A stretch of 64,000 nucleotides of DNA from Bradyrhizobium sp. CCH5-F6 (GTDB taxonomy: Bacteria > Pseudomonadota > Alphaproteobacteria > Rhizobiales > Xanthobacteraceae): assembly GCF_001556045.1 (NCBI RefSeq), contig NZ_LSIC01000141.1, positions 1 to 64,000 on the forward strand, given 5' to 3'. A program made the position numbers and the translations under genes. Below, in pieces: positions 29,440 to 30,266 of the stretch; position 1 is the stretch's first letter, and every line of letters starts with the position of its first letter. The notes below the pieces were generated by a model that was not told where the DNA came from, searched no databases, and saw nothing but the letters and a program-made list of their open reading frames with translations.

Positions 29440-29874
29440 CTATTTCATCATGCTGAGCTGGACCAGGGGCGCAGCGCCGCCACGCCCGAGGATGGTGTCC
29501 ACCTTCTTGCGGACGCCTTCCAGCGTCAGCGGTTTCACCACGGCGCCATGGGCACCGGCCTTCATCGCTTCGACCGCGGTGGTCTCGTCGGATTTGTCGG
29601 TGACGACGAGAATGCGCACACCCGGAAACCTCGCGCCGAGCTCGCCGATCAGAGCAGGGCCGCGAGCCTTCAGGAAGGAGACGCCAAGCAGCACGACGTC
29701 GGGCTTCAGCCATTCCACGCCCTTCTCATAGGCCTCCTCCGGAGTGGCGAGCTCATGCGTCTCGATCTCGTCGTGCAGCATGAACTGAAGCGCTGCGCGG
29801 GTGATCTCGTCCTCGTCGACCACGAACACGCGCCGCTGGTCGACTGCCTTGGCCGTCTCGACACCGATCTGCAT
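29440..29874 (-). CDS. Pseudo-receiver (CheY-like, no phosphoacceptor Asp)
   Basis: A 144-residue CheY-like receiver domain with no output domain. The acidic pocket (VFVVDEDE, D20-E21) and conserved lysine 114 (AVVKPLTLEG) are present. At the phosphorylated aspartate, PDVVLLGVSF has glycine 64. It should not be phosphorylated in the usual way and probably works as a protein-binding module. A sigma54 promoter lies 38 bases upstream, back to back with nifH and sharing its NifA sites. Confidence 0.88.
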   Translation of the reverse strand: MQIGVETAKAVDQRRVFVVDEDEITRAALQFMLHDEIETHELATPEEAYEKGVEWLKPDVVLLGVSFLKARGPALIGELGARFPGVRILVVTDKSDETTAVEAMKAGAHGAVVKPLTLEGVRKKVDTILGRGGAAPLVQLSMMK

Positions 29875-29910
29875 CCGTCATTCTCCTCGAATTGTTTCGC
29901 CTCGTGGATT

Positions 29911-29926
29911 AGCAATTTCCGTTCCG
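29911..29926 (-). promoter_or_regulatory. sigma54 promoter for the pseudo-receiver operon
   Basis: The reverse strand reads CGGAACGGAAATTGCT: GG (29925-29924), ten bases, GC (29913-29912). Predicted start near 29900, leader about 26 bases. NifA sites lie 54 and 83 bases upstream. Confidence 0.65.
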
Positions 29927-29978
29927 CGTGCTCGCCGCGGAAATCGCGGTGCGCTTGCACCGCAAGCGCCGCGATCCT

Positions 29979-29994
29979 TGTCCGGTTTCTGACA
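29979..29994. promoter_or_regulatory. NifA site 1 upstream of nifH
   Basis: TGTCCGGTTTCTGACA, exact TGT-N10-ACA, 99 bases before the nifH -24 element. Confidence 0.82.
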
Positions 29995-30007
29995 GAGGCC
30001 CTACCTC

Positions 30008-30023
30008 TGTAGGGTTCGACACA
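30008..30023. promoter_or_regulatory. NifA site 2 upstream of nifH
   Basis: TGTAGGGTTCGACACA, exact TGT-N10-ACA, 29 bases from site 1. Two sites upstream of nifH agree with known Bradyrhizobium nifH control. Confidence 0.82.
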
Positions 30024-30092
30024 GCTTCTGTCGGCTGCCTGGGGCGAAATATTTCGCGAGCGCGATCAGCGTCTTAGTGAGCGCGCCGCGAA

Positions 30093-30108
30093 TGGCACGC
30101 CAGTTGCT
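30093..30108 (+). promoter_or_regulatory. sigma54 promoter for nifH
   Basis: TGGCACGCCAGTTGCT, a perfect TGGCAC-N5-TTGC. Predicted start near 30119, giving an unusually long leader of about 148 bases. Confidence 0.94.
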
Positions 30109-30266
30109 ATTTGGATGCAGCAACAACGAGTGAGGGCTGAGAACACGCCGACGCCGCTGGCGAGCGATGTTTTCCTTCCCGAACCCCGCGGGCCCACGCT
30201 TCTGAGAGAGAAGCAATCTCGCGCGAGTAGCGCGGAGTCATTGGCAATCGGTTGATGGAGAGCAAC

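Follow-up and report, generated by a model that had tools for sequence, protein, structure and literature searches.

What does a CheY-like protein do when it sits back to back with nifH and carries a glycine where response regulators are phosphorylated? The gene that raises this question occupies positions 29440..29874 on the minus strand of the window, by which we mean the whole 64,000-nucleotide stretch of DNA analyzed here, and encodes a protein of 144 amino acids. Its sole Pfam match is the receiver domain Response_reg (PF00072; 57.1 bits against a cut-off of 30.2, residues 16-125), and both fold and profile match place it within that domain. In the best profile alignment, to CheY (6er7), Gly64 (codon at 29683..29685, minus strand) lies opposite the phosphorylated Asp, D20 and E21 opposite the two pocket acids (CheY D12 and D13, respectively), and K114 opposite the conserved Lys, with both Mg2+-binding positions acidic in the window receiver. 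The Pfam match and the CheY alignment thereby bear out a preliminary description of this DNA, which had reported a CheY-like protein with Gly64 and no output domain. No fitting model exists for the protein in NCBIfam, where its matches were to general regulators and, among those listed, scored far below cut-off throughout, and comparison against PHROGs returned two families of unknown function.

We then examined the phosphorylation residues across the family. Three protein searches, each contributing its best 120 of 1116-1600 matches, gave 302 distinct homologues, which are those nearest to the queries and not a random draw. Among these listed homologues, residue 64 was Gly in 294, Ser in 4, Ala in 3, Glu in 1, and Asp in none. 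Gly64 was also found in 81 of 81 sequences comprising the window and the best 80 of the 185 loci that encode a relative in our genome scan. Loss of the Asp is thus a trait of the family rather than a local mutation. The conservation of the glycine, which the preliminary description had proposed to check by aligning receivers, is clear, and the case that it had named against itself, close homologues with the Asp intact, can be ruled out from the same 302 sequences. Its further statement that the acidic pocket and lysine are kept holds in part: residue 20 (Asp 279, His 12, Glu 11) and residue 114 (Lys in 289 of 302) are well conserved, but residue 21 varies freely (E109, S100, N33, D30, T13, G9, and 8 others) and is acidic in only 139 of the 302. 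The switch positions have also drifted in this set. Position 92 is A139, T88, C54, V20, M1, with Thr92 in the window protein, and position 111 is A119, L84, I74, V21, T4, never aromatic, and Ala in the window protein. Of the features of a phosphorylatable response regulator, the family therefore has the conserved Lys and lacks both the Asp and the Thr/Ser plus Tyr/Phe switch. With a receiver fold and, across orthologues, no phosphorylated Asp, it matches the pseudo-receivers in these two respects, the one exception being a remote clade of four genomes.

That clade (L099-L102) accounts for 4 of the 12 receiver-bearing genomes in the Hyphomicrobiales set described below and shows 45-47% identity by tblastn. 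Its members do have Asp64, but the two pocket acids are replaced by Ser20 and Gly21, and two of the four also have His or Gln at the Lys position. No family member that we saw, this clade included, has the complete phosphorylation set. In one quick tree with one outgroup, the Asp clade appears nested and not ancestral. A further locus, L098, encodes Ser64. Genera represented among the best 80 of 185 loci include Bradyrhizobium, Xanthobacter, Azorhizobium, Methylocystis, Rhodoblastus, Nitrospirillum, Niveispirillum, Sphingomonas, and Novosphingobium, among others, and the named matches of two of the three protein searches included Steroidobacteraceae MAGs as well as methanotrophic Gammaproteobacteria such as Methylococcus and Methylocaldum. 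A class-wide scan of 385 genomes found the receiver in two, the starting genome and one other. Among 72,556 plasmid records scanned at E 1e-20, one carried the receiver, from Methylococcus, and no other record, rhizobial or otherwise, did so; viral contigs that we scanned held no relative.

Next, we turned to the region shared with nifH, which lies at 30267..31157 on the plus strand (TIGR01287, 463 bits, cut-off 394). On the receiver side, a ribosome binding site, GAGGAG, can be read from the sequence at 29883..29888 (minus strand), preceded by a sigma-54 -24/-12 element CGGAACGGAAATTGCT (CGGAACG-GAAA-TTGCT; 29911..29926, minus strand), the GC of which sits 38 bases upstream of the ATG, in agreement with a 26-base leader. 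Two unstranded NifA sites of the form TGT-N10-ACA follow, TGTCCGGTTTCTGACA at 29979..29994 and TGTAGGGTTCGACACA at 30008..30023, and then a perfect nifH -24/-12 element TGGCACGCCAGTTGCT (TGGCACG-CCAG-TTGCT; 30093..30108, plus strand). The two NifA sites are also bridged by an inverted repeat, ACAGAGG-CCCTA-CCTCTGT, at 29992-30010. In position and content, then, the -24/-12 element of the receiver and the two NifA sites held in common with nifH are as first described, and TGT-N10-ACA upstream of GG-N10-GC places the gene, by sequence, in the NifA/sigma-54 regulon.

The same arrangement recurs across the family. A receiver-side -24/-12-like site scoring at least 18 was present in all 74 regions (the window and 73 loci), mostly as xGGAA(C/T)(G/A)-N4-TTGC(T/A), with the best-scoring site of L017 and L032 departing from the TTGC form; GG-N10-GC at that score occurred in 88 of 1480 shuffled regions (single-base shuffles). 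At least one NifA site was found in 69 of the 74 real regions, against a mean of 0.05 per region after the same shuffling. Fourteen further regions, including Methylococcus, the second BTAi1 copy, and the Asp clade, all had a receiver-side site scoring at least 18 and at least one NifA site, and in L097 the nifH-side site is weak. The layout that the preliminary description took to predict production together with NifH (divergent genes, -24/-12 elements, and NifA sites) is therefore conserved. NifA is the activator of nif operons in Alphaproteobacteria, according to the accessible part of PMC4999443. The portion of PMC6066989 available to us reports a perfect NifA site in the chromosomal nifH promoter of DOA9 and very low free-living expression of that nifH without chromosomal NifA; a 7.1-Mb contig of Bradyrhizobium sp. 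DOA9 carries the receiver (L007).

Position relative to nifH proved equally constant. The receiver is divergent from, and adjoins, nifH in 73 of 73 testable loci among the best 80 of 185, the contig ending first in the other seven. Of 397 Hyphomicrobiales genomes sampled evenly, nifH occurs in 65, and 12 of these 65 have the receiver (E up to 1e-10), with 13 of 13 copies being divergent neighbors of nifH. The gammaproteobacterium Methylococcus sp. EFPC2 shows the same divergent pairing. The nifD and nifK genes of the window (TIGR01282 and TIGR01286) occupy about 4.7-7.8 kb, with the end of nifK ~22 kb from nifH, and the receiver remains with nifH despite the distance to nifDK. BTAi1 (L083) and genome G787 have two nifH copies each, and every copy has its own receiver, the second receivers (4696-5094 in L083; 1516-1896, minus strand, in L103 of G787) being more diverged and having a different tail. 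By eye, a SufE-like gene follows both of these second receivers. Four other genomes (G001, G457, G562, and G613) have 2-4 nifH-family genes and a single receiver each. As 53 of the 65 nifH-bearing Hyphomicrobiales genomes are without the receiver, nitrogenase in general does not need it.

Some clusters appear to have lost the gene. Bradyrhizobium sp. CCBAU 51765 (G001) has a second nifH at 7.28 Mb with NodA 0.44 Mb away, and G365 has its only nifH at 7.83 Mb with NodA 0.27 Mb away; the receiver was found at neither. Both clusters nevertheless keep NifA sites and a receiver-type -24/-12 element (TGGAACG-GAAG-TTGCT and TGGAACA-GAAC-TTGCT, at L110 2312-2327 and L111 2324-2339), which now precede an ArsC-like gene, and the simplest reading of these sequences is loss of the receiver. 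In two more genomes the gene is damaged, possibly through assembly error: in G594, which has NodA, the stretch from helix 3 to strand 4 is read out of frame, and the reading frame of the G668 gene is disrupted close to residue 115. Mutual exclusion of receiver and NodA can be rejected genome-wide (p = 0.60), with seven of the 65 genomes having NodA and two of those (G001 and G594) giving a receiver match. We take this to mean that certain symbiotic clusters have lost the receiver, without treating such loss as a rule.

These promoter and linkage data bear on whether the receiver acts on transcription instead of on nitrogenase. Once induced by NifA, it could bind NifA, sigma-54 RNA polymerase, or NtrC and so damp or sharpen nif expression, the pairing with nifH merely supplying a strong NifA-dependent promoter. 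Negative feedback by a NifA-induced protein is plausible, NifA sites and the -24/-12 element are conserved on the receiver side, and the tight linkage to nifH could reflect the shared promoter alone. Against this, a protein that binds NifA would have no need to adjoin nifH at every testable locus or to appear as an extra copy at an extra nifH, and the two clusters without a receiver still keep their NifA sites. On balance, we consider feedback on transcription unlikely.

The neighboring genes offer a second route to function. An ArsC-like nitrogenase-associated protein (29019..29429, minus strand; TIGR01616, 176 bits, cut-off 109) begins 10 bases past the receiver stop and is probably in one operon with it. 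Genes for this protein over the cut-off occur in 11 of 12 receiver-bearing and 5 of 53 receiver-less genomes (p = 5e-8, not corrected for kinship), G668 being the one receiver-bearing genome without it, and in 36 of 43 genomes of another receiver-bearing set, G001 being in both sets; in four of the 11, the gene is on another contig or far away. A truncated globin (25418..25846 in the window, plus strand; PF01152, 120 bits) occurs no more than 30 kb from nifH in 11 of 12 receiver-bearing and 1 of 53 receiver-less genomes (p = 2e-10, likewise uncorrected for kinship), and directly behind the receiver in 5 of those 11 as well as in Methylococcus. Broken contigs hide neighbors and so lower these co-occurrence counts. 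DraT, by comparison, was detected in 0 of 12 receiver-bearing and 16 of 53 receiver-less genomes of the same 65 (p = 0.03, again uncorrected for kinship). Strict exclusion between DraT and the receiver is rejected by six Rhodoblastus that have both, among 44 other receiver-bearing genomes or records.

Several other genes of the window were also recorded. At 28330-29015, a glutaredoxin that scores over the Grx4 cut-off and a ferredoxin-like gene of the 2Fe-2S type, which stays below the cut-offs, face the receiver/ArsC-like operon convergently. The nif cluster also contains a TPR protein at 27256-27735; in G707, the gene immediately after the receiver encodes a TPR protein (L104 6517-6999). An Irr-type Fur regulator (31917-32429, over the NCBIfam Irr cut-off) has nifQ on one side and, on the other, an ORF that looks nifV-like by eye. 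Further along, 43596-64000 holds a TonB siderophore receptor (TIGR01783) and giant ORFs beside nif and fix genes. One giant ORF (48264-58046) has amino-acid adenylation domains over cut-off and a second, seen by eye, runs from 58049 onward; this region may be a siderophore cluster linked to nitrogen fixation.

A receiver with such neighbors might be a maturation or redox helper, aiding the assembly or repair of the Fe protein alongside the ArsC-like protein and Fe-S genes. In favor of such a role are the neighboring ArsC-like gene, Grx4, the ferredoxin-like gene, the truncated globin, and, in some loci, SufE-like genes (named by eye) behind the receiver. Against it, the receiver is missing from 53 of the 65 genomes with nifH, and the window protein has no cysteine, although the conserved His34 and His40 and their acids could bind metal. 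We regard a helper of this kind as improbable.

Conservation along the protein gives an indication of where it might make contact. The best conserved stretch of the domain is residues 28-41, ALQFMLHDEIETHE (29752..29793, minus strand), from the end of helix 1 to strand 2, and ahead of the domain lies an N-terminal tail, residues 1-14, MQIGVETAKAVDQR (29833..29874, minus strand). Tail residues 2-5 are invariant in 81 of 81 and in 120 of 120 sequences, and the tail is of low confidence in the structure model. Residues 1-5 and 28-41 together supply 16 of the 30 best conserved positions. Conservation also extends to the Lys-Pro loop and to positions 22, 23, 29, and 30 at helix 1. On the usual output face, helix 4 and strand 5 have drifted, and helix 5 has done so to a smaller extent. 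Codons 2-6 vary synonymously, so the constraint at the start of the gene acts on the protein, and a conserved nucleotide element can be ruled out as its cause.

Helix 1 of receivers is also a docking site for histidine kinases, and its conservation does not therefore single out NifH. A dead receiver could instead be a decoy or anti-kinase in the manner of FixT, docking on a histidine kinase and blocking it, as the conserved helix 1 positions and Lys-Pro loop lie on the usual kinase docking side. Inspection by eye of the listed ORF starts of the window revealed no kinase, and the conserved N-terminal tail has, to our knowledge, no part in known kinase docking. A kinase decoy is in our judgment less probable than either feedback on transcription or a role in maturation.

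Comparison with the 14 closest loci gave a codon divergence of 55/30/514 by codon position, with 464 synonymous and 92 non-synonymous codons. A decayed, functionless leftover of a response regulator, which the missing catalytic residues and the damaged copies in two genomes might suggest, is thus very improbable, as the codon pattern makes decay unlikely among close relatives and the tail is near-invariant in two separate sequence sets.

We can postulate instead that this is a NifA-induced binding protein, independent of phosphorylation, that serves nitrogenase, most likely NifH, in free-living cells. On the sequence evidence we find this the most attractive explanation, at somewhat below an even chance. 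The preliminary description had suggested a protein-protein regulator of nitrogenase or of NifA; its interpretation gains partial support, from the family-wide absence of the Asp and the conserved layout with nifH. A receiver domain would have lost phosphorylation and turned into a binding protein, becoming a dedicated nif gene, with the NifA/sigma-54 sites on both promoters predicting that it is made together with NifH. The tail and the helix 1/strand 2 face would bind a conserved nitrogenase component, and NifH is the first-choice partner, as the receiver has kept its place beside nifH both where the operon is split and in two duplications. In line with this proposal, receiver and NifH protein distances correlate over 52 loci (r = 0.65; 0 of 2000 permutations as high). 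Bound there, the receiver may tune or protect NifH under changing oxygen or nitrogen in its owners, which we take from their names to fix nitrogen free-living; the ArsC-like protein and truncated globin may act alongside it. Its mode would be one of occupancy, set by the amount made or by the ligand or redox state of the partner, and not of phosphotransfer. A more specific version, which we put forward as speculation of low probability, is that the family is a dedicated nitrogenase partner that clamps or releases the Fe protein through the tail and helix 1/strand 2 and is made in step with NifH from one two-way promoter, providing post-translational control or protection in free-living aerobic diazotrophs mostly without DraT, and that it was dropped from some clusters entering symbiosis.

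The nifH gene is the standard marker for nitrogen fixers, yet the gene across the promoter from it carries, in a large group of diazotrophs, just the annotation of a response regulator, implying ordinary two-component signaling. Should the receiver serve nitrogenase, a nif gene has been overlooked, one of possible importance for the transfer of nitrogenase to new hosts; it would also be a clean example of a signaling domain losing its chemistry and gaining a partner. Genome G001, with one nifH copy that has the receiver and one that does not, makes the question directly testable. We found no described function for the nifH-linked receiver in the open-access literature, including the accessible parts of PMC2907700, PMC3916325, PMC9769520, PMC2765452, and PMC11059613, and in many diazotrophs it appears to be a component of the nitrogen-fixation machinery that has so far gone undescribed.

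The closest published counterpart is "nrf3", which the available text of PMC3912193 describes as a 426-bp two-component response regulator on a nif fosmid from acid mine drainage, matching Herbaspirillum seropedicae, adjoining a globin gene and having a sigma-N site. From this description, nrf3 probably belongs to the nifH-linked family; in that text it is merely named, with neither the missing Asp nor a link to nifH mentioned. In Azospirillum brasilense and sp. B510, draTG is located upstream of nifH, and the Azospirillum amazonense genome lacks draTG and has three conserved hypothetical genes in common with BTAi1 (accessible part of PMC3169532). An alphaproteobacterial study of the NifA regulon predicts draTG to be under NifA in Magnetospirillum and Rhodospirillum and does not name the receiver in its regulon section (PMC4999443, in the part accessible). 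The proteins of the DraT/DraG switch-off system are unrelated to the nifH-linked receiver. Compared with the PF00072 receivers CheY, FixJ, and NtrC/NtrX, the family is without the phosphorylated Asp, varies at the second pocket acid, has lost the switch Thr/Tyr positions, and adds a near-invariant N-terminal tail outside the domain. FixT of rhizobia, which acts on FixL, is likewise, by description, a small receiver-like protein tied to nitrogen fixation. KaiA, CikA, and the plant APRR proteins are pseudo-receivers that keep the receiver fold without the phosphorylated Asp and act by protein contact. The nifH-linked protein has the same fold and the same loss and would, we propose, also act by contact; unlike these pseudo-receivers, it stands alone, lies in nif clusters behind NifA and sigma-54 sites, and is fixed beside nifH.
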